Origin: Neptunicoccus cionae
GTDB lineage: Bacteria; Pseudomonadota; Alphaproteobacteria; Rhodobacterales; Rhodobacteraceae
DNA length: 64,000 nt
Direction of reading: 5' to 3'
Assembly: GCF_014643735.1 (NCBI RefSeq)
Contig: NZ_BMKA01000002.1
Location: forward strand, 868,001-932,000
Part shown: positions 46,623 through 61,999 of the stretch, piece after piece
Numbering within the stretch: position 1 is the stretch's first letter
Layout of the letters: each line of letters begins with the position of its first letter
The notes under the pieces: model-generated
The model's database searches: none
The model's input: the letters and a program-made list of their open reading frames with translations, nothing else
Told to the model about the DNA's origin: nothing
Program-made: the position numbers and the translations under genes

Positions 46623-47852
46623 ATGACCACACTCCAGTTCATACGCGATAATCTTCGGTGGTTGGCAGCCGGTGTGCTACTGACCTTCCTGTCCAGCTTT
46701 GGACAGACCTACTTCATCTCCATTTTTGCAGGCGAAATACAGTCCGCCTTCGACCTGTCCCACGGGGATTGGGGTGGTCTCTATTTCCTTGGGACAATGG
46801 TTTCAGGGATGCTAATGATCTGGGCTGGCAGCTCGGCGGATCATTTTCGGGTGCGTGTGCTTGCCGTGATGGTAATGGCGACGCTTGCGGTGTTGTGCAT
46901 TGCCATGAGCCGGATCAGCGCGGTCTGGCTGCTTCCGTTTTTGGTGTTCGGGCTGCGGTTTACGGGGCAGGGGATGCTGTCTCATATCGCTGTTGTTGCG
47001 ATGGCGCGCTGGTTTGTGCGCGCACGGGGTAAGGCGATTTCCTACGCGGGGCTAGGTTTTGCGCTGGGGCAGGCGATCCTGCCCGTCGTCTTCGTCGCGC
47101 TGATGCTGCACTACGACTGGCAAAGCCTCTGGCTGATCTCTGCCGTCTTCCTGATCCTCTGTATCCCGTTGTTATTGTGGCTTTTAAAGGCGGAGCGCAT
47201 TCCGTCTGATGTGTCTACTTCATCGGATGCGACAGGCATGTCAGCCCGACACTGGACCCGAAAAGAAGTCCTGTCAGATTGGCGGTTTTGGGGGCTGATC
47301 CCGATCGCAACATTGTCGAGCACATTTGGCACCGCCCTGTTCTTTCAACAAGTGCATCTGGCAGAGGTCAAAGGCTGGAGCCATGTGGAACTGGTCGCCC
47401 TTTTCCCGATTTACACAGCCACGCTGGTGGTCTCGGGACTGTTTGGCGGCTGGGCTGTAGATCGTTGGGGCAGCGTCCGGTTGCTGGCCTTTTCGCAAAT
47501 TCCGATGGCCATCGGGTTTGTCATGCTCGGCATGTCCGACAGCCTACTTGTTGCCGCCATAGCCTTCGCAATTGTCGGTGTCGGCGGCGGAGCCTATGCC
47601 ACGATTGGCGCGTCTTTCTGGCCAGAGGTTTATGGAACCCGAAGTATCGGGTCGATCAAGGCACTGGCAACGGCACTAATGGTGTTTGGCTCTGCTGTGG
47701 GGCCGGCGTTTACCGGCTGGGGCATTGATCTGGGCGTGAATTTCCCTGACCAGATGGTGGCTTACGCGGTTTACATGGTGCTGGTGTCCCTGTGGACAGC
47801 CTATGTGACCCGTCGCATCCGCGTTGATATCACCGCGCCCGTTGCCGCCTGA
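46623..47852 (+). CDS. Major facilitator superfamily transporter
   Basis: 409 aa with about 12 hydrophobic segments in two halves separated by a hydrophilic loop near residues 185-220. No substrate-specific motif stands out. I see no ribosome site before the ATG, which follows a T-rich stretch, so the start could be leaderless or misplaced. It overlaps the convergent Smr gene by 23 bp. Confidence 0.85.
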   Translation: MTTLQFIRDNLRWLAAGVLLTFLSSFGQTYFISIFAGEIQSAFDLSHGDWGGLYFLGTMVSGMLMIWAGSSADHFRVRVLAVMVMATLAVLCIAMSRISAVWLLPFLVFGLRFTGQGMLSHIAVVAMARWFVRARGKAISYAGLGFALGQAILPVVFVALMLHYDWQSLWLISAVFLILCIPLLLWLLKAERIPSDVSTSSDATGMSARHWTRKEVLSDWRFWGLIPIATLSSTFGTALFFQQVHLAEVKGWSHVELVALFPIYTATLVVSGLFGGWAVDRWGSVRLLAFSQIPMAIGFVMLGMSDSLLVAAIAFAIVGVGGGAYATIGASFWPEVYGTRSIGSIKALATALMVFGSAVGPAFTGWGIDLGVNFPDQMVAYAVYMVLVSLWTAYVTRRIRVDITAPVAA

Positions 47853-48432
47853 GGTAAACGTAATAGGCCCCGCCGCCGCCATGTTTGCCGTGGGCCTGAG
47901 TGACCTGTAGCACCAGATGGGACACAGGGCCGGTTTTCAGCCATTCCGGCACGCCGGTGCGCAATACACCACTGCGAGGGCGGTTGAATTCGTCCACAAA
48001 CTGTTTGTTTCCCTTGCCGGTAATCACAAGGATCAGCCGGTTCCCCATCCGGTTTGCGTTCTGCACGAACATCTGCAACTGCATCCGCGCTTGATCCGCT
48101 GTCAGACCGTGCAGATCCAACGTGGCGTCAATCTCCAGCTGGCCTTTCAACAGCCGCTGAAAGTTGCGCCGGTCCATATTGGGGGAGGTCTGGTTCGGGC
48201 GATCGACAAAAGACGGCGGCTTGGCACGAGTGCTCGCCTTGGCCTGTGCCTTCGCACCGATTTTGAAGGGCTGGATATCCGGCGCTGGTGCGGTCGGCTT
48301 CTTTTTTGCCGGTTTGGAATTGGGCTGCGTGATCAGGGGCGGCATAGATTCGATGGATTCCACCTGCTCCACAACCTTGTTCCAAAGAGTCTGTTCATCA
48401 TCAGTCAGAGCGCGTCTTTTCTTGCGGGCCAT
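47830..48432 (-). CDS. Smr-domain protein
   Basis: 200 aa. A Lys/Pro-rich N-terminal region (1-100) precedes a small MutS-related (Smr) domain: LDLHGLTADQARMQL and ILVITGKGNKQF. The domain has endonuclease activity in characterised members. Stand-alone Smr proteins may act in ribosome rescue or DNA repair. It follows mltA by 3 nt, so the tim44-mltA-smr genes form an operon. Confidence 0.92.
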   Translation of the reverse strand: MARKKRRALTDDEQTLWNKVVEQVESIESMPPLITQPNSKPAKKKPTAPAPDIQPFKIGAKAQAKASTRAKPPSFVDRPNQTSPNMDRRNFQRLLKGQLEIDATLDLHGLTADQARMQLQMFVQNANRMGNRLILVITGKGNKQFVDEFNRPRSGVLRTGVPEWLKTGPVSHLVLQVTQAHGKHGGGGAYYVYLRRQRAR

Positions 48433-48435
48433 AGG

Positions 48436-49491
48436 CTAGCCCTCCGGCAGCAGGCGTTTGACGGAAGCGTGGGGCAGTAACGTGTACATCCGCCCACCAT
48501 CCTTGATGCGCCCTGCGGTACGGCCCGCTTCGGCCCCCGAACCATAGTAAATATCTGCCCGTTGCGCGCCTTTGATGGCCGATCCCACATCTTGGGCCAC
48601 CATAAGGCGGCGGATCGGGTCTTTGCCCTTCTTATCAATCCAAACAGGCGCACCGAGCGGGATGTAATCGTCGTCCACGGCGATGGTCCGCCCCGTGCTA
48701 ACAGAAACCCCCATCGCGCCGGGGGGGCCGGCTTCGACGTCCAGACCAGCCAGTTCACGGAAAAAGACAAAAGAAGGGTTGTGTTGAAGGATACGACGGC
48801 CGTCATTGGGGTTCTTGCGCACCCACGCCTTAATCCGTCCCGCCGAAGCCTTATGGGCAGAAAGGATGCCGCGACGCACCATTTCTTTCCCGATAGACCG
48901 ATAGGGTTGGCCGTTCTTGCCATCAAAGCCAACACGCATGGCGCCGCCTTCGTTCAGTTTGATCCGGCCGGATCCCTGCACATGCAGAAAGAAATTCTCA
49001 ACCGGATCGGACAGCCATGCCAGTTCCAGCCCGCGACCGGCCAAAGCACCGGATTCGATCTCGGCACGGGTTTTCCACGGCTTGCCGAGGGTCATTTCGC
49101 GGGGACGTTTATAAAGCGGGTACTGGAATTTACCGGCCCGATACCGCGACCCGACGATTTCCGGTTCGTAATATCCGGTAAAAAGCGTGTGCTTGCCGTC
49201 CTCTATCAGGACCGGTTGGAAGAAAAGTTCAAAAAACGCCCGCGCGTCTGTGGTTTTCTTGGCAAAGGCACAAAGCTCGGACCAGTCTTGCGCCTGTGTC
49301 TGGTTGTTCACGCGGATTTTATCGCATGATTGGACAAACACAGCCAGCGCCGCGCCGTGATCATCCGTTTCCCAGTCTGGTAATTCTGAAAAGGAAACGG
49401 CTTTAACGGTCATCGTATCTGCCTGTGCTGTTTGTGTCAGCGCACCGATTGCAAGAACGGCAGCCCGTAGAAATTCTGCCGTTCGTTTTAT
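48436..49491 (-). CDS. mltA: Membrane-bound lytic transglycosylase MltA, probable ATA start
   Basis: Murein transglycosylase A: FTGYYEPEIVGSRY, YKRPREMTL, SGRIKLNEGGAMRVGFDGKNG and a C-terminal 3D domain (DVGSAIKGAQRADIYYGSG) are typical. The first ATG (49413) would give 325 aa with no signal. The frame remains open upstream and encodes KRTAEFLRAAVLAIGALT then QTAQA-DT, a good Sec signal peptide with an AQA cleavage site. No ATG, GTG or TTG precedes it; ATA at 49489-49491 lies 7 nt after GGAG. I therefore start the 351-aa form there. A G-to-A base error is the alternative. No lipobox cysteine is seen. Confidence 0.85.
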   Translation of the reverse strand: MKRTAEFLRAAVLAIGALTQTAQADTMTVKAVSFSELPDWETDDHGAALAVFVQSCDKIRVNNQTQAQDWSELCAFAKKTTDARAFFELFFQPVLIEDGKHTLFTGYYEPEIVGSRYRAGKFQYPLYKRPREMTLGKPWKTRAEIESGALAGRGLELAWLSDPVENFFLHVQGSGRIKLNEGGAMRVGFDGKNGQPYRSIGKEMVRRGILSAHKASAGRIKAWVRKNPNDGRRILQHNPSFVFFRELAGLDVEAGPPGAMGVSVSTGRTIAVDDDYIPLGAPVWIDKKGKDPIRRLMVAQDVGSAIKGAQRADIYYGSGAEAGRTAGRIKDGGRMYTLLPHASVKRLLPEG

Positions 49492-49493
49492 CG

Positions 49494-50153
49494 TTACTCT
49501 CCGGTTGCAACCAGTTGCCAGTTCGGATCGTCACTTCCCATAATTCTGGCGAAAGTCCAAACATCTTTTTGACGTTTGATCACTTTGGGGTCGCCCTCGA
49601 TGATCTCACCAGAGCCGTCTTTGACACAGGACGTGATTTCAGCAACGAATTTCATGGTGATTTCTGCTTCGTTGTTGGCGGGATCGAACATGGCATCCAT
49701 CAGCTTCAATTCACGCATACCAATGAAATTAGCTTCTACTTTCAGACCCTTGGCCTGACGTTCTTCAACAACAGCGGCGAAGCTTTCGTAGACATCCGGT
49801 GACAGAAACCCCTTCAGCGTGTCCAGATCATCCCCTTCAAAGGCCATCAAGATCATTTCATAGGCCTGACGGGCGCCGGACTGGAATTCAGATACAGAGA
49901 AATCGGATTCTATGCGCTTCATTGCAGCAAAAGCCTGACCGGCGCGGCTGTCAGGATCGACGTGATCCGCGATGTCCGGATCAGGGCCGCCTTCGATCAC
50001 TTCGAAGTCGCGGGCAGGGCCGCCAGTGGTTGGGCCGGTGCGTTCTGCTGGCGGTTCGTATCCGTCGCGTGTTCCAAGAACATTACGCAACCGCAACACT
50101 AGAAATACGGCGATAGCCGCCAGAACAAGCAACTGAATTAGGGCGGAGTTCAT
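49494..50153 (-). CDS. Tim44-domain protein
   Basis: 219 aa. One N-terminal transmembrane helix (residues 5-23), a linker, and a C-terminal Tim44-like domain (QAFAAMKRIESDFSVSEF, FEGDDLDTLKGFLSPDVYESF). Bacterial Tim44-like proteins bind the inner membrane; roles in protein insertion or assembly are proposed. It starts the operon that continues to mltA, 2 nt after its stop codon, and smr. It is divergent from fxsA. Confidence 0.9.
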   Translation of the reverse strand: MNSALIQLLVLAAIAVFLVLRLRNVLGTRDGYEPPAERTGPTTGGPARDFEVIEGGPDPDIADHVDPDSRAGQAFAAMKRIESDFSVSEFQSGARQAYEMILMAFEGDDLDTLKGFLSPDVYESFAAVVEERQAKGLKVEANFIGMRELKLMDAMFDPANNEAEITMKFVAEITSCVKDGSGEIIEGDPKVIKRQKDVWTFARIMGSDDPNWQLVATGE

Positions 50154-50181
50154 GGAACCTCTTTCATATTTTTACAGAGAC

Positions 50182-50234
50182 GGTGGAATTCACCGCGTGT
50201 CACACTTATTTAGGACACAGTGGGGTTCAAGTCC
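50182..50234 (+). other. tRNA-Leu-like fragments in the tim44/fxsA intergenic region
   Basis: GGTGGAATT (50182-50190), TTTAGG (50209-50214) and GGGGTTCAAGTCC (50222-50234) occur in the order of D-arm, anticodon loop and T-arm of tRNA-Leu(UAG). The spacings are wrong (about 13 nt short between anticodon and T-arm) and no acceptor stem is seen. GTGTC and GACAC also pair within it. It is either a decayed remnant or a coincidence. Confidence 0.2.
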
Positions 50235-50266
50235 ACCGAATGCGAAAAGAGAGAATGTGAGGCCAG

Positions 50267-50758
50267 ATGCCGCTTTTAATCCTGTTTATTGCCATTCCGA
50301 TCATCGAGATCGGCCTGTTCATTCAGGTCGGCGGCTGGCTGGGTCTGTGGCCAACGCTGGCGATTGTCATTCTGACAGCGATTATCGGCACCTATTTGTT
50401 GCGTTTGCAGGGGATGGCGGCACTAGCGCGATTGCAAAACAATCTTAAAACCGGACAAAGCCCGATGGACCCGATCGTCAACGGTGCGATGATCCTTGTG
50501 GCTGGAGTGCTCCTGCTGACGCCGGGTTTCTTTACTGATACGGTTGGGCTGATCCTGTTAACGCCACCGATGCGTGCTATGCTTATCCGTTGGGGTGCTG
50601 CACGTTTTGTTAACAAAAGCACTGTTATTTTTACCAATAGCAGCGCCGCACGGTCCCGGCAGAGCCCTGACAACGGAACGGTTGAGGGGGATTTCGTCGT
50701 GCTTGATGACGACGAGACACAGCAGCCCGGAAACTCCGGTTGGACAAAGCCGGATTAG
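50267..50758 (+). CDS. fxsA: FxsA family membrane protein
   Basis: 163 aa. The N-terminal two-thirds is hydrophobic (about four segments: LLILFIAIPIIEIGLFIQVGG, then WPTLAIVILTAIIGTYLL) with the FxsA signature LRLQG after it; the tail is hydrophilic. FxsA overproduction relieves F-plasmid exclusion of phage T7 in E. coli; its normal role is unknown. GAGG is 5 nt before the ATG. secB follows after 72 nt. Confidence 0.92.
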   Translation: MPLLILFIAIPIIEIGLFIQVGGWLGLWPTLAIVILTAIIGTYLLRLQGMAALARLQNNLKTGQSPMDPIVNGAMILVAGVLLLTPGFFTDTVGLILLTPPMRAMLIRWGAARFVNKSTVIFTNSSAARSRQSPDNGTVEGDFVVLDDDETQQPGNSGWTKPD

Positions 50759-50830
50759 GGGCTTATTGCCGTTGTTCTATAGCGGTAAAATTGGTACCAC
50801 CGCGCAGATTTATGAATTGGGAGTTTAGGC

Positions 50831-51316
50831 ATGGCCGAAGAAAATAACGGCGCGGCACAAGAAGCAAAGCCCGTCGCAATGAAGATCGTTAACCAGTACA
50901 TCCGAGATCTTTCGTTTGAGAATGTTGCAGCACAGAAAAATCTGGGCGGCGATCTGAAACCGGAAGTGAATGTTCAGGTTAATCTGGACGCTGCCAAAAA
51001 GAGCGAAAACGGCTACGAAGTTGCCCTAAAGCTGAACGTCAGCGCCAAATCCGATGAGCAGGCTGTCTTTCTGTTAGAAATCGACTATGCCGGTCTGTTC
51101 CAGATTGAAAACATCCCCGAAGACCAGTTGCACCCGTTCCTGATGATCGAATGCCCGCGCATGATGTTCCCTTTCGTGCGCCGTATAGCACGGGACGTGA
51201 CAGCAGACGGTGGCTTCCCGCCGCTGAACATCGACAACATTGATTTCATGCAGCTTTACCGTTCTGAACTGATGCGCCGCCAGCAGGCCGCCGCTGAACA
51301 AGCGCCTACGAATTAA
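50831..51316 (+). CDS. secB: Protein-export chaperone SecB
   Basis: 161 aa. INQYIRDLSFE-like NQYIRDLSFENV and FLMIECPRMMFPFVRRIARDVT are classical SecB segments. It keeps precursors unfolded and delivers them to SecA, whose gene and zinc tail lie at 23823. GGGAG lies 7 nt before the ATG. Its end overlaps the convergent dnaQ by 11 bp. Confidence 0.97.
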   Translation: MAEENNGAAQEAKPVAMKIVNQYIRDLSFENVAAQKNLGGDLKPEVNVQVNLDAAKKSENGYEVALKLNVSAKSDEQAVFLLEIDYAGLFQIENIPEDQLHPFLMIECPRMMFPFVRRIARDVTADGGFPPLNIDNIDFMQLYRSELMRRQQAAAEQAPTN

Positions 51317-51995
51317 GCCACGCTGCATCAGGACCAAGGGTCTTGATGAACGCATCATGGTTATCTTTTTCCGCCTCGGTTATCCGGGGCGGAAGTGTTT
51401 TTGGGCGCGCTGGAACTGTCCAGTTGCTCGCCGATCCTGCCTTGTCACTGTCGGTCCCCCCGACAATCCCAAGCGCAAAGTCCGGTTGCCGACCGCCGAT
51501 CAGTTCCAGATAGACTTCCGCCAGAATTTCACTGTCGAGCAATGCCCCGTGCAGTGCGCGTTCTGTCGTGATCCCAAACCGGCGACACAGTGCATCAAGG
51601 GAGTTTTGCGCACCCGGAAATTTCCGCCGCGCAATGTCTAAGGTATCAATCGCTTGTGAATAGGGCAGTTGGGCCATGTTCAGCCAGCCCAGCTCCGCGT
51701 TCAGAAACTTCATGTCGAATGCCGCGTTGTGGATCACCAGCTTGGCATCCCCGACAAAATCCAGAAACTCCTGCGCGATCTTGGCAAAAACCGGTTTGTC
51801 CCGCAAAAAATCAATCGACAGCCCGTGCACATCGAACGCTTCTTGCGGCATGTCCCGTTCTGGATTGATGTACTGGTGGTAGGTCTTGCCGGTGGGCAGG
51901 TGATTCCAAAGCTCCACGCCACCAATTTCCACGATCCGGTCGCCGGTTCTCGGGTCCAGTCCGGTGGTTTCCGTATCCATCACGATTTCACGCAT
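51306..51995 (-). CDS. dnaQ: DNA polymerase III epsilon subunit
   Basis: 229 aa. 3'-5' exonuclease with D7 and E9 in DTETTGLDP, ExoII HNAAFDMKFLN, and ExoIII HGALLDSEILAEVYLEL. It proofreads during replication. ATG 51995 is chosen to match the usual MREIVMDTETTG start; an upstream frame to 52019 exists. It overlaps the coaE end by 8 nt. It belongs to the maf-aroE-coaE-dnaQ leftward block beside the probable origin. Confidence 0.96.
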   Translation of the reverse strand: MREIVMDTETTGLDPRTGDRIVEIGGVELWNHLPTGKTYHQYINPERDMPQEAFDVHGLSIDFLRDKPVFAKIAQEFLDFVGDAKLVIHNAAFDMKFLNAELGWLNMAQLPYSQAIDTLDIARRKFPGAQNSLDALCRRFGITTERALHGALLDSEILAEVYLELIGGRQPDFALGIVGGTDSDKAGSASNWTVPARPKTLPPRITEAEKDNHDAFIKTLGPDAAWLNS

Positions 51996-52596
51996 TACAA
52001 CTGTCCTTAATCTTCGCAATCACGGCGTCTACCTGCCGTTCTGCGGCCTCTGGCGTGGTGGTTTCAACGATGAAATCCGCCCGTTTGCGTTTCTCGGCGT
52101 CCGGCATCTGTTTTGCAAGGATGATTTCCAGCGTTTTTTCGTCCATTGTGCCACGTTCCAGGACACGGCGGCGTTGTTCTGCGGCGTCGATCGTCACCAC
52201 AAGAACCCCGTCACAATAGCGTTCCGAACTGCTTTCCAGCAAAAGCGGGTGGTCGATGATGACAATATCGACGTCATTATCCCGTGCTTCCGCCACAAAA
52301 TCTGCGCGGCTTTGGGCGATCAGAGGCTGTACGATCTGCTCCAGTTTTTTCAGGATGCTTTGGTCTTTGGCGATTGCAGCCTTCAGCGTGTCACGGTTAA
52401 CCGTCTTGTTTTCCACCGCCTCCGGCAGCATTTCAGCAATCTGGCGCACTGCGGGGGTGTCGCCAGAATAAAGCTGATGCACAGTGGCATCCGCATCCCA
52501 CACAGGTATCCCGCGATCCGCAAACCGCTCTGCAGTAGTGGACTTTCCCATGCCGATAGAGCCTGTAAGCCCAAGTATATACGGTCTTTGCTTCAC
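51988..52596 (-). CDS. coaE: Dephospho-CoA kinase
   Basis: 202 aa. P-loop GSIGMGKST at residues 12-20, and DADATVHQLY after it. It phosphorylates dephospho-CoA in the last CoA step. Starts with GTG sharing GTGA with the aroE stop; a longer frame to 52650 would overlap aroE more and lacks the conserved start. Coupled to both neighbours. Confidence 0.95.
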   Translation of the reverse strand: MKQRPYILGLTGSIGMGKSTTAERFADRGIPVWDADATVHQLYSGDTPAVRQIAEMLPEAVENKTVNRDTLKAAIAKDQSILKKLEQIVQPLIAQSRADFVAEARDNDVDIVIIDHPLLLESSSERYCDGVLVVTIDAAEQRRRVLERGTMDEKTLEIILAKQMPDAEKRKRADFIVETTTPEAAERQVDAVIAKIKDSCNA

Positions 52597-53423
52597 TTCA
52601 AAACAACCTCTCGCAGGGTCTCGGTTACTTGCGGGCGAACCCCGAACCACGCTTCAAACCCCGGAACAGCCTGATGCAACAACATTCCCAGCCCGTCCAC
52701 CGTTTGCAGGCCCTTATCCTGCGCCTGTTGCAACAGATCAGTTGTCATCGGCACATAAACCAGATCGGTCACCAGCGCACCCGCCGCGCAATTAAGCGTA
52801 ATGTCCAAAGGCGGTTGATCCCGCATCCCAAGAGAGGTCGTGTTAACCACCAAAGCCGCCTCACGGGTGGCTTCAGAAATATCATCCCACCCCAAAACAC
52901 TGATTTTTGGACCAAATTCGTCTGCCAAAGCCTCTGCCCGGCCCCGTGTCCGATTGGCGAGCAGGATTTTCGGCACGCCCGCATCCAGCAGCGACCACAA
53001 AACCGCGCGGCCTGCCCCGCCTGCGCCCAGAACCAGCGCCGGACCTTTGCCAGCGTCCCAATCCGGCGCATTCTGGCGCAGATTATTGATAAAACCGATC
53101 CCGTCCGTGTTATCCGCCCGAAACCCGCCGTCCGGTAGAAATTCCAGCGTGTTCGCCGCACCAATCATCTTGGCACGGGGCGTGACCTCTGCCGCCAGCT
53201 CCAGCGCTGTTTCCTTATGAGGAATCGTTACATTCGCCCCGACAAATCCCAGCTTTGGCAGCTGTTGAATCATTTCTTCAAAATCCGCCGGTTCGATGCC
53301 AAGCGGCACATAGTGCCCCGCGATATCATGTTGCGCGAGCCAATAGCCGTGAATGCGCGGGGATTTACTGTGAGAAATTGGCCACCCAATTACGCCGGCC
53401 AGTGGCACACGGGGGTTCTTCAT
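52593..53423 (-). CDS. aroE: Shikimate dehydrogenase
   Basis: 276 aa. The substrate-binding SHSKSP near residue 17, catalytic K70 in NVTIPHK, and the NADP Rossmann loop GAGGAGRAV are present. It reduces dehydroshikimate in aromatic amino acid synthesis. It shares 4 nt with maf upstream and with coaE downstream. Confidence 0.96.
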   Translation of the reverse strand: MKNPRVPLAGVIGWPISHSKSPRIHGYWLAQHDIAGHYVPLGIEPADFEEMIQQLPKLGFVGANVTIPHKETALELAAEVTPRAKMIGAANTLEFLPDGGFRADNTDGIGFINNLRQNAPDWDAGKGPALVLGAGGAGRAVLWSLLDAGVPKILLANRTRGRAEALADEFGPKISVLGWDDISEATREAALVVNTTSLGMRDQPPLDITLNCAAGALVTDLVYVPMTTDLLQQAQDKGLQTVDGLGMLLHQAVPGFEAWFGVRPQVTETLREVVLK

Positions 53424-54016
53424 GATTGGATCGCTCCTCTACTGCGCAAGAAATCGAGAACCTCTAACAGGGGCAGGCCCAGAATGGTAAAATAGTCGCC
53501 CTGCACCCGTGAGAAAAGCGTAACTCCAATGTTTTCAAGCTGGTAGCAACCGACTGAAGACAAAACCGTGTCACCTGCTTTTTCTAGATAATCCTCAAGA
53601 AAATCGTCGGAAAAGTCCCGCATCGCCAGTTGCGCGCGCCCGATATGGCGCCAGACGGGCTTGGTCTCTTCATAGACCACAACAGCGGACAACAACTGAT
53701 GCCCCTGACCGCGCAGGGATTTCAAATGCTCCCGGGCTTCATCGATGGATTTCGGCTTACTATAGACCTGTCCGTTGCAGGTCAGAACCTGATCCGCCGC
53801 GATCACCAGTGACGCAGGATGACGGTCCGCAATCCTGCGCGCCTTATACTCTGCCAATGTATCGGCAATATCACCGGGCTTTGCCCCTTCCGCCTGAAGC
53901 GACAGGAGAATCGATTCTTCGTCCACACGGGGCACATCAGTGGTAAATTCGACCCCTGCATCCCGCAACATGGCGCCGCGAATCTGTGAACCGGAGGCAA
54001 GCACAATCTGGGTCAT
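53420..54016 (-). CDS. maf: Maf-family nucleotide pyrophosphatase
   Basis: 198 aa. The SxSxxR motif S8, S10, R13 (ASGSQIR), DEESIL and AADQVL are Maf hallmarks. It hydrolyses non-canonical or modified nucleotides and has been linked to septum inhibition. First gene of the leftward block; its ATG borders the probable origin. In Caulobacter and Rickettsia a pyruvate-dikinase regulator gene (RP001 type) lies between the origin and maf; none is seen here. Confidence 0.93.
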   Translation of the reverse strand: MTQIVLASGSQIRGAMLRDAGVEFTTDVPRVDEESILLSLQAEGAKPGDIADTLAEYKARRIADRHPASLVIAADQVLTCNGQVYSKPKSIDEAREHLKSLRGQGHQLLSAVVVYEETKPVWRHIGRAQLAMRDFSDDFLEDYLEKAGDTVLSSVGCYQLENIGVTLFSRVQGDYFTILGLPLLEVLDFLRSRGAIQS

Positions 54017-54249
54017 TATTTTTTTTCCACGATGACTGTCATATTTGTGTGCCTAACGCAGTTTAAAACCATGAACCAGAGCCTGTGGACGAATCGGCCT
54101 GAACTCTCTGGAGTTTTCCACGGTTATCCCCCGCACTTTTGGCTCCGTGGATATTCCACGGATTTATCCCCAGTGATACCGAAGTTTTAAACAGGGGGGA
54201 AAGAATACCATAAACGGTTCGATTCTGTGGGCTGAATCCCCTAATCCTT

Positions 54250-54258
54250 TTTTGCACA
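54250..54258 (+). promoter_or_regulatory. DnaA box TTTTGCACA
   Basis: Exact match to the relaxed DnaA consensus TTWTNCACA, 5 nt from the next box and in the same orientation. Confidence 0.7.
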
Positions 54259-54263
54259 CAGAG

Positions 54264-54272
54264 TTATCCACA
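54264..54272 (+). promoter_or_regulatory. DnaA box TTATCCACA
   Basis: Exact match to the strict consensus TTATCCACA, the highest-affinity DnaA site type. Confidence 0.85.
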
Positions 54273-54504
54273 GGACTCACCCTAGACCGTACCTTAAAAA
54301 ACAGGGCTTTTCTGTTGCTGCACACAGGCTGTGGTTGGAAACGTGAGGAGTTATCAATACGGCAGAAAAAAGGCCTTAACCTGTGCATAGAAATTTAATC
54401 CACAGGTTTCGGGTTTCCCTACTCCATAAACATCTTTCTTAAATCTATTATATTTATTGAGTGTGTATCGAACCCGTGTGTAAAACCACTCTGTCCCGTG
54501 AAAC

Positions 54505-54519
54505 TTAAAATTGGCTTAA
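54505..54519. promoter_or_regulatory. CtrA-type motif TTAA-N7-TTAA
   Basis: TTAA-AATTGGC-TTAA, a perfect full-site match, ending 9 nt before the hemJ ATG. In Caulobacter such sites in the origin let CtrA repress initiation. It could also regulate hemJ. The motif has eight fixed bases, so a chance match in AT-rich DNA is possible. Confidence 0.45.
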
Positions 54520-54528
54520 GAAAAGATA

Positions 54529-54981
54529 ATGACTGATCTTCTGGCGACGGTTTACCCGTGGGTGAAAACCCTCCATATCTTATCCGTAATCAGTTGGATG
54601 GCGGGGCTACTGTATCTTCCCAGATTATTCGTGAACCATGTGGAACACGGGCCGGTGGGATCAGAGACAAGCGAAGTCTTCAAAGGCATGGAAGTCCGGC
54701 TTTTACGGCTGATTATGAATCCGGCAATGATCGCCACTTGGGTTTTTGGCCTGATGCTGGCGTTCACACCGGGAATAGTGGATTGGGCTTCGTTCTATCC
54801 TTGGGTCAAAGCTGTGATGGTCTTGGGAATGACCCACTACCACCATTGGCTGGCGAAACGGCGAAAGGAGTTCGCGGCAGATCAGAATACACGCAGCGCG
54901 CGGTCTTATCGGATCATGAATGAACTGCCGACGGTTTTAATGATTATCATTGTCACGATGATCGTGGTGCGTCCGTTTTAA
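54529..54981 (+). CDS. hemJ: HemJ-type protoporphyrinogen oxidase
   Basis: 150 aa, four transmembrane segments. KTLHILSVISWMAGLLYLPRLFV is the HemJ signature; H15 lies in it, and a conserved-looking ELPTVLMIIIV lies at the C-terminus. It oxidises protoporphyrinogen IX before ferrochelatase (hemH at 19927). It occupies the position next to the origin that hemE holds in Caulobacter. Confidence 0.92.
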   Translation: MTDLLATVYPWVKTLHILSVISWMAGLLYLPRLFVNHVEHGPVGSETSEVFKGMEVRLLRLIMNPAMIATWVFGLMLAFTPGIVDWASFYPWVKAVMVLGMTHYHHWLAKRRKEFAADQNTRSARSYRIMNELPTVLMIIIVTMIVVRPF

Positions 54982-57754: not shown

Positions 57755-59635
57755 ATGTTTCACGTGAAACAATGCGATTTTGATGTTGTGGTAATTGGCG
57801 GCGGACATGCTGGGGCGGAGGCCGCCCAAGCCGCGTGGCGTACTGGCGCGCGGACGGCTTTGATCACGCACAGTTTTAAGAAAATTGGAGAGATGTCCTG
57901 CAACCCCGCAATTGGGGGCTTGGGCAAAGGCCACCTCGTCAGAGAGATCGACGCGCTTGATGGAGTCATGGGACGGGTCGCTGACCAAGCAGGCATCCAA
58001 TTCCGCTTATTGAATCGTCGTAAGGGTCCAGCGGTCCAGGGGCCTCGGACGCAGGCAGATCGTTCACTTTATCGCGACGCTATGCAAAAGGAATTTACAG
58101 GCCGTGATGGCTTGGAGGTCATCGAGTCAGAGGTGACAGATTTCTTGATGTCCGGAGATAGTGTAGCCGGTATCGTCTTGGCCGATGGCAGTGAGGTTAA
58201 GTCAGCCGCCGTAGTTCTCACCACGGGAACATTTCTGCGGGGCGTGATCCATATCGGCGACGTCTCAAAACCGGGCGGACGTATGGGTGATAAACCTGCG
58301 CTGGATCTTGCAAGTCGGATGGACAGCTTTGATCTTCCTTTGGGGCGTTTAAAAACCGGCACACCACCGAGACTGGATGGTCGAACGATAAACTGGGATG
58401 GTTTAGAGTTGCAGGCAGCGGATGATGTTCCAAGCCTTTTTTCATTCCTATCGACTAAAGCTATGTCGCCACAAGTATCCTGCGGCATAACGCATACAAA
58501 CAGCCGTACGCATGAGATCATCGAGAAAAACCTCGAAAAATCAGCTATGTATGGCGGACACATCGATGGCGTAGGGCCGCGGTACTGTCCGTCCATCGAG
58601 GATAAAATCGTTCGATTTGGTGAGAAAGACAGCCATCAGATTTTCCTTGAACCTGAGGGTTTGAACGATCCGACAATCTACCCGAATGGCATTTCAACAT
58701 CGCTCCCGGTCGATGTGCAAGAAGCTTACGTGACATCAATTATGGGGCTCGAAAATGTTAAAATCCTCCAGCCCGGATATGCCATCGAATATGATTATGT
58801 AGACCCGAGGGCACTGGACACAACATTGCAGGTTCGCACAGTGCCCGGTCTGTTTCTGGCCGGTCAGATAAACGGTACAACGGGTTACGAAGAGGCAGCA
58901 GCGCAGGGTTTGGTCGCTGGCGTTAACGCCGCGCGGTCTGCGCAACAAAATGGTCCGGTCCATTTCAGCCGCGCCGAAAGCTACATCGGAGTGATGGTTG
59001 ATGACCTCACAACACGCGGCGTCACTGAACCTTATCGAATGTTTACCTCTAGGGCAGAATACAGATTGTCCTTGCGCGCTGACAATGCTGATCAGCGTCT
59101 TACACCAATGGGGATTTCGCTCGGGTGTGTTGGGACTGAACGTGCCAAAGTGTTTGGCGGCAAGATTGGAAAACTGGACGCCGCGAGGGATGAGCTAACC
59201 GAGAGAACGGCTACACCAAACGAAGTTGCCAAGACCGGTGTGAAAATTAATCAGGACGGTGTTCGACGGAATGGCTTGGAACTTCTGTCGTACAAAGACG
59301 TATCGCTGGAAACGCTTGGCCGGCTCTGGCCCGACATGGCGAAATTGGAACCCGCAGTCGCCCAGCAGGTGCAGAACGATGCGATGTACGCCAACTACAT
59401 CCAGCGTCAGGCGTCAGATGTTTCGGCTGTGCAAAAGGATGAGAAATTGCTGATTCCTGCAGATTTTCCTTTTACTGGTATCTCCGGTCTATCGAAGGAG
59501 TTACAATCCAAACTGGAGACAACTAGGCCTGAAACTCTGGGGCAGGCGGGCCGTATCGACGGGATGACACCAGCGGCTCTCACACTTTTGCTTGGCCGTG
59601 TAAAGCAATTTAATGTCGCGAAAACAGCATGTTAA
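57755..59635 (+). CDS. mnmG: tRNA uridine-5-carboxymethylaminomethyl synthesis enzyme MnmG
   Basis: 626 aa. FAD-binding [10 protein letters not shown] near the N-terminus, [48 protein letters not shown]. It is the flavin partner of MnmE. The first six codons contain a parS palindrome (57756-57771), so residues FHVKQ are dictated by that DNA site. It overlaps rsmG by 7 nt. Confidence 0.97.
57756..57771. promoter_or_regulatory. parS: parS site 1
   Basis: TGTTTCACGTGAAACA, a perfect 16-bp palindrome matching the chromosomal parS consensus. It overlaps the mnmG start codon. Confidence 0.9.
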
Positions 59636-60267
59636 GTTCCGTTCTCGACTTGGCAGCCGTCTGCAAGCACTTTAATGTTTCACGTGAAACATTTGAGAGG
59701 CTACACATCTATTCGCAAGCGCTCCAAAAGTGGAACCCGACAATTAATCTCGTTAGCAAATCCACATTAGACAGCGCTGCAGTTCGTCATTTCGCGGACA
59801 GCATGCAGCTCTGGCAGCATCGAAAAGAATTTCAGTCTTGGGTTGATATTGGCTCCGGTGCGGGTTTTCCGGGGCTGGTACTAGCTATTTTAGCAGCCGA
59901 ACAGTCGCTAGGCTCGGACTTCCACTTAGTTGAAAGCGATGCGAGAAAGTCAGCCTTTTTGAGAAATGTTTCACGTGAAACAGGGGTGAAGGTCATCGTC
60001 CATACTATGCGTATTGAGGATTTCGATGCTGTAGAAGCTGATATAGTTTCTGCACGCGCGCTGGCTCCGCTGAGTGATCTCCTTGAGATGTCGAAAACTT
60101 TTCTGAAAAAAGACGGGATATGCCTTTATCTGAAGGGTCAAAATTGCCAAACTGAGATAGGTGGGGCGAGTCGGTTTTGGACATTCGAAGCGGAGCAATT
60201 CGCCAGCGAAACCGATGTAAATGGAACGGTTTTGCGGGTCAAGGAAATCGAGCGTGTCAGAACATAA
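59629..60267 (+). CDS. rsmG: 16S rRNA (guanine527-N7)-methyltransferase RsmG
   Basis: 212 aa. SAM-binding [15 protein letters not shown] near residue 80, [21 protein letters not shown] at the N-terminus. It methylates G527 of 16S rRNA. Two parS palindromes lie inside the gene; both encode the hexapeptide NVSRET. G+C appears low: 26 of 60 bases at 59701-59760 by direct count. Confidence 0.95.
59676..59691. promoter_or_regulatory. parS: parS site 2
   Basis: TGTTTCACGTGAAACA, identical to sites 1 and 3, inside rsmG. Confidence 0.9.
59967..59982. promoter_or_regulatory. parS: parS site 3
   Basis: TGTTTCACGTGAAACA, identical to sites 1 and 2, inside rsmG, 287 bp before the parA start. Confidence 0.9.
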
Positions 60268-61072
60268 CGGCTTAAAGCCGGTCAAAATACTTTCTATCGC
60301 CAATCAAAAAGGCGGGGTTGGGAAAACCACTACGGCAATAAATCTTGGAACAGCACTTGCAGCTGTTGGAAAACGAGTGCTGTTGTTGGACCTCGATCCT
60401 CAAGGAAATGCTTCAACGGGGCTCGGGATAGATCCCACAAAGCGTACGGTCACAATGTACGATGTGTTGGTTGATCAAACACCTATTGAACAAGCAATCA
60501 TGCGAACGCAGGTTCCAAACCTGTTTCTAATGCCGTCATCAGTTGATCTTAGTTCGGCTGACGTGGAGTTGGTTGATGATCAACGACGGGTACTTCGGTT
60601 GAGAAAAGCGCTCGAAGAACTCAACAACTTTGACGACGAATTTGATTATGTTCTGGTGGACTGCCCGCCGTCGTTGAACCTTTTGACATTGAATGCGCTG
60701 GCGGCGAGCCAATCCGTCATTGTGCCTTTACAGGCAGAGTTCTTTGCGCTTGAAGGGCTGTCCCAACTCATGCTGACAATTCGGGAAGTGCGCCAAAGCC
60801 TTAATCCGATCCTCAAAATTGAAGGGATCGTGCTAACGATGTTTGATGGCCGGAATAATCTGTCTCAACAGGTGGAGCAAGACGTCAGGGAAAACCTTGG
60901 TGATTTGGTTTACTCGACGATCATTCCCAGAAATGTGCGTCTGTCCGAAGCGCCATCTTTCGGCATGCCGGCAATTCTCTATGATCATAGAAGTCGGGGC
61001 AGCGTAGCTTATCAGAAATTGGCGGCGGAATTCCTGAGGCGTGAAAACCGACGTGTGCAAGAACCGACGTAA
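60254..61072 (+). CDS. parA: Chromosome partitioning ATPase ParA
   Basis: 272 aa. Deviant Walker A KGGVGKTT at 19-26, DCPPSLNLLTLNAL, and NVRLSEAPSFGMP. The start is GTG 60254 with AAGGA 8 nt upstream (60241-60245), overlapping rsmG by 14 nt; the ATG at 60221 adds residues that disturb the family N-terminus. It forms the nucleoid gradient that moves ParB-parS. parB follows after 18 nt. Confidence 0.96.
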   Translation: MSEHNGLKPVKILSIANQKGGVGKTTTAINLGTALAAVGKRVLLLDLDPQGNASTGLGIDPTKRTVTMYDVLVDQTPIEQAIMRTQVPNLFLMPSSVDLSSADVELVDDQRRVLRLRKALEELNNFDDEFDYVLVDCPPSLNLLTLNALAASQSVIVPLQAEFFALEGLSQLMLTIREVRQSLNPILKIEGIVLTMFDGRNNLSQQVEQDVRENLGDLVYSTIIPRNVRLSEAPSFGMPAILYDHRSRGSVAYQKLAAEFLRRENRRVQEPT

Positions 61073-61090
61073 CGGGTGAGGAAAACTTAA

Positions 61091-61999
61091 ATGAGCAAGA
61101 AGAATGAAAAAAGAGGTCTCGGCCGTGGATTGTCCGCGCTAATGGCAGATATTAATGAACCGACTGCGACACAGGACGTAGCAGGAGAGGGCCCTCGCAG
61201 CAGCGAAAAGATGGTTCCAATTACGAAGGTACATGCTAACCCTGATCAGCCTAGGCGGACGTTTGATCATGTTGAGCTGCGTGACCTGGCTAAATCGATT
61301 TTGGCTAAGGGGATCATTCAGCCTCTCATCGTGCGCCCTGATCCCAATAATAAGGGCGAATACCAGATTGTTGCGGGGGAACGGCGCTGGCGCGCATCCC
61401 AGACTGCAAAGATCGACGAAGTTCCCGTTGTTATCCGTGAGATGGACGATCTGGAAGTCCTTGAAATTGCGATCATCGAGAACATTCAGCGCGCGGATCT
61501 AAACCCCGTGGATGAGGCGTTTGGCTATCATCAATTGATGGAGAAATTCGGCCACACGCAGGAAAAACTTTCCGAAGCGCTTGGCAAAAGTCGGAGCTAT
61601 CTGGCAAATTCTATGCGGTTGCTAAATCTGCCGACTGGCGTGCAAGATATGTTGGTCGACGGGCGGCTGACAGCCGGTCATGCGCGGGCTTTGGTGCCTG
61701 CCGAGAATGCTTTGGAACTGGCACGGCAAGTTGTCGATAAAGGCTTGTCTGTGCGCCAGACCGAAGCGCTGCTCAAAAAGGGGCAAACTCCACCGAAGCC
61801 GAAGACGCCTAAGCTGGCAAAAGACAGTGATACCATATCTTTGGAAACCGATCTTTCAGCAAATCTGGGGATGAAAGTTAGTATTGATCACAAGGCCGGC
61901 ACCGAATCCGGTTCCATTTCAATCAAATACGCATCGTTTGATGATTTGGATGCTTTGTGCCAAATGCTGTCCGCTACCCGTTCGGCCGGGTCCATATAA
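61091..61999 (+). CDS. parB: Chromosome partitioning protein ParB
   Basis: 302 aa. N-terminal RGLGRGLSALM (ParA-interacting), PDQPRRTFDH, the CTP-binding box GERRWRA near residues 96-102, NIQRADLNPVDEA, and the helix-turn-helix LSEALGKSRSYLANSMRLL. It loads at the parS sites and slides as a CTP-dependent clamp. Its end overlaps the convergent DUF454 gene by 26 bp. Confidence 0.97.
   Translation: MSKKNEKRGLGRGLSALMADINEPTATQDVAGEGPRSSEKMVPITKVHANPDQPRRTFDHVELRDLAKSILAKGIIQPLIVRPDPNNKGEYQIVAGERRWRASQTAKIDEVPVVIREMDDLEVLEIAIIENIQRADLNPVDEAFGYHQLMEKFGHTQEKLSEALGKSRSYLANSMRLLNLPTGVQDMLVDGRLTAGHARALVPAENALELARQVVDKGLSVRQTEALLKKGQTPPKPKTPKLAKDSDTISLETDLSANLGMKVSIDHKAGTESGSISIKYASFDDLDALCQMLSATRSAGSI

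Follow-up and report, generated by a model that had tools for sequence, protein, structure and literature searches.

A probable chromosomal replication origin in the maf-hemJ intergenic gap of a Rhodobacteraceae bacterium

The intergenic gap between maf and hemJ, at positions 54017-54528 of the 64,000-nucleotide stretch of Neptunicoccus cionae DNA analysed here (the window), is very probably the chromosomal origin of replication, oriC, of this Rhodobacteraceae bacterium. The original prediction, made from the letters of the window, had proposed the same placement, which is now supported by a cluster of DnaA boxes, a predicted unwinding core, nearby parS-type sites and parAB, a position conserved among relatives and, in its accessible part, PMC4793288. 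What is observed directly is a set of sequence elements, their clustering and conservation, the parS-type sites and synteny.

An origin beside maf is already known in the family: according to the available part of PMC4793288, on K. vulgare, this position is conserved in Rhodobacteraceae in DoriC, and the window origin is a further example. For P. yeei the predicted origin is AT-rich, about 406 bp long and near parAB, with three TTWTNCACA boxes (PMC6209633, available text), and in 101 genomes oriC was assigned by Ori-Finder and curated with GC disparity, the local GC minimum and parAB (PMC6699656, likewise in excerpt). In the accessible portions of these three sources all origin placements are predictions, and a limited search of the literature, with subscription papers largely outside it, found no experimental origin map for Rhodobacteraceae. 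The less expected details of the present origin are a non-standard trinucleotide core, a CtrA-type site found in a minority of relatives, and a strand polarity that flips off the gap.

Results

A gene-free, AT-rich gap between divergent genes

The gap and its flanks are as follows.

53420-54016, minus strand: maf, left flank (ORF and Pfam Maf)
54017-54528, no strand assigned: maf-hemJ intergenic gap, predicted chromosomal origin oriC (composition, DnaA boxes, relatives)
54529-54981, plus strand: hemJ, right flank (ORF and Pfam UPF0093)

The original prediction had described a gene-free, AT-rich stretch of 512 bases with genes reading away on both sides, and each part of this description held. 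Exactly 512 bases separate the start of maf on the minus strand from that of hemJ on the plus strand (54529), and the two genes, recognised by their Maf and UPF0093 domains, are divergent. The GC content falls to 0.428 in the gap, compared with 0.558 over the window, and is the minimum among the 512-mers of the window taken at 64-base steps. No ORF longer than 74 amino acids was found in the gap; across the window, no Rfam family reached its gathering score and a tRNA search found none. A plasmid collection searched with the gap as query in distant mode gave no match at that sensitivity.

DnaA boxes cluster in the gap

The principal DnaA boxes, two of which had been predicted as exact TTWTNCACA matches 5 nt apart, are these.

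54164-54172, plus strand: weak DnaA box TTATCCCCA, one mismatch
54250-54258, plus strand: DnaA box TTTTGCACA, exact TTWTNCACA
54264-54272, plus strand: DnaA box TTATCCACA, perfect consensus
54382-54390, minus strand: weak DnaA box CTATGCACA, one mismatch to TTWTNCACA
54396-54404, plus strand: DnaA box TAATCCACA, one mismatch, start of the conserved unwinding core
54477-54485, minus strand: DnaA box TTTTACACA, exact TTWTNCACA

The predicted spacing of the pair at 54250 and 54264 was correct and the count was not, since a third exact box, missed at first reading, lies at 54477-54485 on the minus strand. Several one-mismatch boxes had also been claimed, and we counted seven in the gap. Over the window as a whole the enrichment of the exact motif is weak (9 matches against 3.76 expected, with at least 9 in one of 100 shuffles); the clustering in the gap is beyond chance. 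Indeed, 13 sites with at most two mismatches to TTATCCACA fall in the gap, and the non-overlapping 512-mers of the window hold at most 5 (mean 1.43).

This clustering recurs among relatives, whose gaps contain about seven DnaA-like boxes on average. The gap is the richest DnaA-box window of its own locus in 74 of 79 relatives, and it tops the count within 3.4 kb in 23 of 24 loci held out from the first set. Over 400 kb it ranks first in all four genomes examined, with 9-12 sites against a maximum of 4-7 elsewhere. By eye, a DnaA box also lies over the maf start codon in many of the loci L001-L080 (TTATCCACATG, on the maf strand); the overlap suggests that DnaA may control maf as well.

A conserved, probable unwinding core with a CTAC-(CAN)n element

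To the right of the box at 54396, the gap contains the following elements.

54405-54418, plus strand: 14-nt spacer from the DnaA box (54396) to the trinucleotide element
54419-54434, plus strand: CTACTCCATAAACATC element, DnaA-trio-like; in relatives, CTAC followed by CAN-type trinucleotides
54434-54459, no strand assigned: AT-rich tract, probable duplex unwinding element, within the least stable 50-mer

The AT-rich tract of the original prediction was borne out: among 63,950 50-mers the least stable in the window, by stability calculated from stacking energies, starts at 54419 and spans 54419-54468. The gap is likewise the site of lowest 50-mer stability in 76 of 79 relatives' loci.

The relatives share a core near hemJ made up of a TAATCCACA-like DnaA box, a spacer, CTAC, CAN-type trinucleotides and a T-rich AT tract. 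A composite pattern describing it was applied to the window and the 79 loci together, and matched 61 of the 80. Its reverse complement matched 2 and the reversed pattern 0, with an average of 1.8 in shuffles; elsewhere in the gap the pattern matched 2 of the 80 in the first 140 bp and 6 in the middle 140 bp. Since the pattern had been composed after reading these same sequences, we tested it on the 24 held-out loci, which give the fair count. It matched 18 of them, with 1 for the reverse complement, 1 for the reversed pattern, 0 in the first 140 bp and 0.56 in shuffles. A stricter version searched against 16 whole genomes matched 7, once each and always in the maf-hemJ gap, with 0 matches for a backward control; it found no match in the other 9 of the 16, the close relative G003 among them.

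A conserved position for the probable origin and a probable loss of its old neighbours

Loci were fetched from 80 relatives by means of HemJ, the closest being those of Neptunicoccus sediminis, a Rhodobacteraceae MAG and Amylibacter cionae (L001-L003; 95-97% HemJ identity). In 79 of the 80, maf and hemJ bound a gap of 378-512 bp (mean 420 bp, about 90 bp shorter than the 512 bp of the window); these 79 were analysed together and the exception, L065, was set apart. One of the contigs with a typical Rhodobacteraceae origin block, L011, is labelled as a Flavobacteriia MAG and is likely mislabelled or contaminated.

L065 has the order maf, ppsR (Kinase-PPPase), a 415-bp gap, hemE, putative hemH (read from the ORF) and hemJ. 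The gap between ppsR and hemE has 4 DnaA-like sites, more than any other window of that locus, and visual inspection suggests a CTAC element resembling that of the core. The segment, L065:6560-10450, comes from a MAG labelled Rhodospirillaceae and has an apparently ancestral layout, with ppsR, gap, hemE and (hemH) between maf and hemJ. In all nine relatives searched, hemE is located elsewhere. Because L065 still has both hemE and ppsR, we infer that the Rhodobacteraceae origin stayed in place and its old neighbours departed, so that maf and hemJ now abut it.

The original prediction had also noted that dnaA is not nearby, and a tblastn search of the window with a relative's DnaA indeed gave no match at E 1. 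In the three relatives whose contig includes both, dnaA lies about 83-166 kb from the gap, and it was not found within 200 kb of the gap in G001 or G003. A distant dnaA is normal in these relatives; in P. yeei it lies 965 kb from the predicted origin, according to the available text of PMC6209633.

parS-type sites and parAB lie to the right of the gap

The segregation features on the hemJ side are these.

57756-57771, no strand assigned: putative parS-type site TGTTTCACGTGAAACA, within the first codons of mnmG (ORF 57755-59635)
59676-59691, no strand assigned: putative parS-type site within rsmG (ORF 59629-60267)
59967-59982, no strand assigned: putative parS-type site within rsmG (ORF 59629-60267)
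60221-61999, plus strand: parA and parB, chromosome segregation (ORFs, Pfam)

The sites were called against the parS consensus. The window contains 3 exact matches against 0 expected, 3.2-5.5 kb to the right of the gap. All three lie inside coding sequence (the mnmG start and rsmG), and relatives seem to carry parS-type copies at similar places. All 16 relatives' genomes scanned contain the exact 14-mer GTTTCACGTGAAAC in 1-3 copies, confined to the block that carries these sites beside the gap; 78 of 79 loci have it, the exception (L005) being a short piece. In R. sphaeroides, imaging work marked OriC1 by ParB1 (PMC6315104, accessible part).

A CtrA-type site in some lineages

Near hemJ the gap contains one further element.

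54505-54519, no strand assigned: TTAAAATTGGCTTAA, putative full CtrA-type site TTAA-N7-TTAA (exact sequence match)

We used the CtrA consensus TTAA-N7-TTAA as given in the available part of PMC1914354. It is present in 19 of the 79 gaps, where each of the other spacings (N3-N6, N8-N12) gives 0-2. Such sites occur at 0.572 per kb in the gaps and at 0.0026 per kb in the remainder of the loci. Allowing one mismatch nearly abolished the excess (N7 in 38 loci, 16-35 at other spacings). Three of the 19 are L001-L003, which share with the window the exact site near hemJ. In the held-out set the site occurred in 2 of 24 loci. CtrA-type sites as a family-wide feature did not hold up on these two counts, and the held-out figure therefore points to a trait of some lineages. 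No match to the IHF consensus WATCAANNNNTTR was found in the gap within one mismatch. In the Rhodobacteraceae studied so far ctrA is non-essential, by the available account in PMC8116508; the CtrA-type sites make CtrA gating of replication in this family a testable question.

The strand-polarity boundary appears as a zone left of hemJ

Chromosome-scale polarity was examined in the relatives' genomes from 20 stretches sampled in each and divided into two sets by the gap. In each of the three genomes treated in this way, the KOPS octamer GGGCAGGG had the strongest strand bias of any 8-mer (70:2, 53:9 and 60:9). In G005 the sign of the sampled GC skew changed no further than one sampling step from the gap; in G003 the skew drifted from negative to positive across some 30-150 kb, and in G007 it had no clean sign change. 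The original prediction placed the minimum of cumulative GC skew at the gap. Run over 400 kb in each of four relatives, this check had a mixed outcome: the minimum lay 18-107 kb to the left, although the value at the gap stood only 1-19% of the range above the 400-kb minimum.

Positions of the best KOPS switch, given relative to the gap with negative values to the left, were -16.1 to -17.3 kb in G003 (64 of 77 sites concordant, 61 if the switch is set at the gap), -7.7 to -19.5 kb in G006 (48 of 60; 45 at the gap), -7.1 to -16.5 kb in G001 (53 of 69; 52 at the gap) and about -75 kb in G007 (83 of 98; 63 at the gap). Moving the switch leftwards thus gains 1-3 of 60-77 sites in G001, G003 and G006 and 20 of 98 in G007. 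In G007 (Pseudooceanicola spongiae, L156-L175) the switch of KOPS and that of GC skew lie about 75-79 kb to the left, an offset that is perhaps a lineage-specific rearrangement. In the window the switch falls between 37756 and 46965; two sites on the left side of the gap have the opposite polarity, and none on the right side does.

The block immediately left of the gap (-8 to 0 kb, window 46623-54016) has right-arm polarity, with KOPS at 98:18 over the 79 loci (L065 excluded). The flip in KOPS polarity thus seems to lie close to hslVU or further left, not at oriC. Codon usage as the full cause of this bias was rejected by synonymous shuffling, in which the MFS-to-maf segment had 83 sites observed against 36.0 expected on one strand and 7 against 19.1 on the other. 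Skew at four-fold sites is leading-like to the right of the gap (plus genes 0.109, minus genes -0.148). To the left it is lagging-like for hslV (-0.181) and hslU (-0.106), leading-like for the plus genes MFS (0.116) and fxsA (0.102), and averages 0.007 for the minus genes.

To the left of hslV, the order of genes changes in the two further genera compared, G006 and G007. Of the orthologue pairs between these two, 82 are inverted and on opposite sides and 4 are inverted on the same side; the strand is unchanged in 57 pairs on the same side and in 21 on opposite sides. This is consistent with inversions about the origin. The pattern was less clear for G001-G006 (51 opposite-inverted, 18 same-inverted, 48 same-same, 24 opposite-same) and for G001-G007 (16, 12, 65 and 28, respectively). 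Most G006-G007 inversion axes fall at -40 to +4.5 kb, and some at +52 to +75; since they scatter in this way, synteny cannot choose between 0 and -10 kb.

These data place the compositional boundary in a zone left of hemJ, not base-exactly at the gap. An origin 8-17 kb further left, near hslVU, with the gap as a DnaA-binding control region for titration or sensing, would account for the best KOPS switch in G001, G003, G006 and the window and for the right-arm KOPS of the -8 to 0 kb block in 79 loci. We consider this very unlikely: the leftward switch gains just those 1-3 sites in the three genomes, four-fold-site skew assigns hslV and hslU themselves to the left arm, and the maximum of DnaA-like boxes outside the gap over 400 kb is 4-7 against 9-12 within it in four genomes. 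Moreover, gene order left of hslV varies (G006, G007) and the gap persists in 79 of 80 loci, with the unwinding core inside it and the parS-type sites to its right. It is hardly credible that the gap is just a divergent, DnaA-autoregulated maf/hemJ promoter with no origin function, for although both promoters are expected there and a DnaA box seen by eye overlies the maf start in many relatives, some seven DnaA-like boxes, a conserved core, a tract of low stability and parS-type sites would be superfluous for a promoter, and L065 retains its DnaA-like sites, with what looks by eye like the CTAC element, between ppsR and hemE. Boxes, core and conservation are combined only at the gap.

Discussion

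With oriC placed in the maf-hemJ gap, what we infer from its elements (DnaA binding, melting, initiation, and the action of ParB and CtrA) can be arranged into a working model. DnaA-ATP would occupy the strong boxes (54264 and its neighbours) and then spread to the weaker sites. A DnaA filament starting at the 54396 box would extend past the spacer, engage a single strand of the CTAC-(CAN) element and melt the AT-rich tract at 54434-54459, where helicase would be loaded and from which two forks would depart. ParB, bound to the three parS-type sites 3.2-5.5 kb to the right of the gap, would help to separate the new origins, and the CtrA-type site at 54505 may restrain initiation in the lineage of the window.

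A broader reading joins three propositions: a family-specific unwinding module whose CTAC-(CAN)n strand is read by DnaA in place of the 3'-GAT-5' trio, CtrA gating in some lineages including that of the window, and a KOPS axis some 8-17 kb off the origin. We put it forward tentatively, and as a whole it is rather doubtful. If true, the hslU-maf block, on the origin side, would be pumped as part of the other arm, and CtrA gating would operate at oriC as in Caulobacter, although the Rhodobacterales studied can do without ctrA. Should the distance between the origin and the KOPS switch prove general, skew alone would be an unsafe guide to oriC in Rhodobacteraceae. More widely, the work places a probable origin for a little-studied marine lineage and makes its family-wide anatomy open to testing.

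Comparison with known origins

Caulobacter Cori lies in the same gene block as the gap. The original claim that the maf and rho blocks flank oriC in Caulobacter and Rickettsia needs correction for the direct flanks, which in both organisms are hemE and COG1806, as far as the available part of PMC1914354 goes. The same source describes for Cori DnaA boxes, an AT-rich stretch and a TTAA-N7-TTAA site, all of which recur here. In contrast, Cori is flanked by hemE and COG1806 (ppsR) and the present gap by maf and hemJ, and Cori contains an IHF site and five CtrA sites, where the gap has one CtrA-type site and no IHF match (PMC1914354, same portion). The ppsR-gap-hemE arrangement of L065 is the Caulobacter layout of that account.

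The origins predicted for Rhodobacteraceae by Ori-Finder and DoriC resemble the present one in being intergenic, next to maf and near parAB; the window gap differs in its greater length and in its exact CtrA-type site near hemJ (PMC4793288 and PMC6209633, accessible parts).

Finally, the core can be set beside the BUS of the B. subtilis type, for which the rule, in the available text of PMC8287927, is a DnaA box, a spacer of at most 16 bp and at least three DnaA-trios. The present core likewise has a DnaA box, a 14-nt spacer, a period-3 repeat and AT-rich DNA after it, and its first trinucleotide, CTA, is 3'-GAT-5' on the opposite strand. The later units in relatives are CAT or CAA and not CTA, so that only the first is a consensus trio. 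Read in another register, ATC units would satisfy the loose central-A rule, and the departure is therefore from the GAT consensus. The CTAC-(CAN)n core is a candidate for the deviant DnaA-trios that, in the part of PMC8287927 available to us, are suspected yet unfound.
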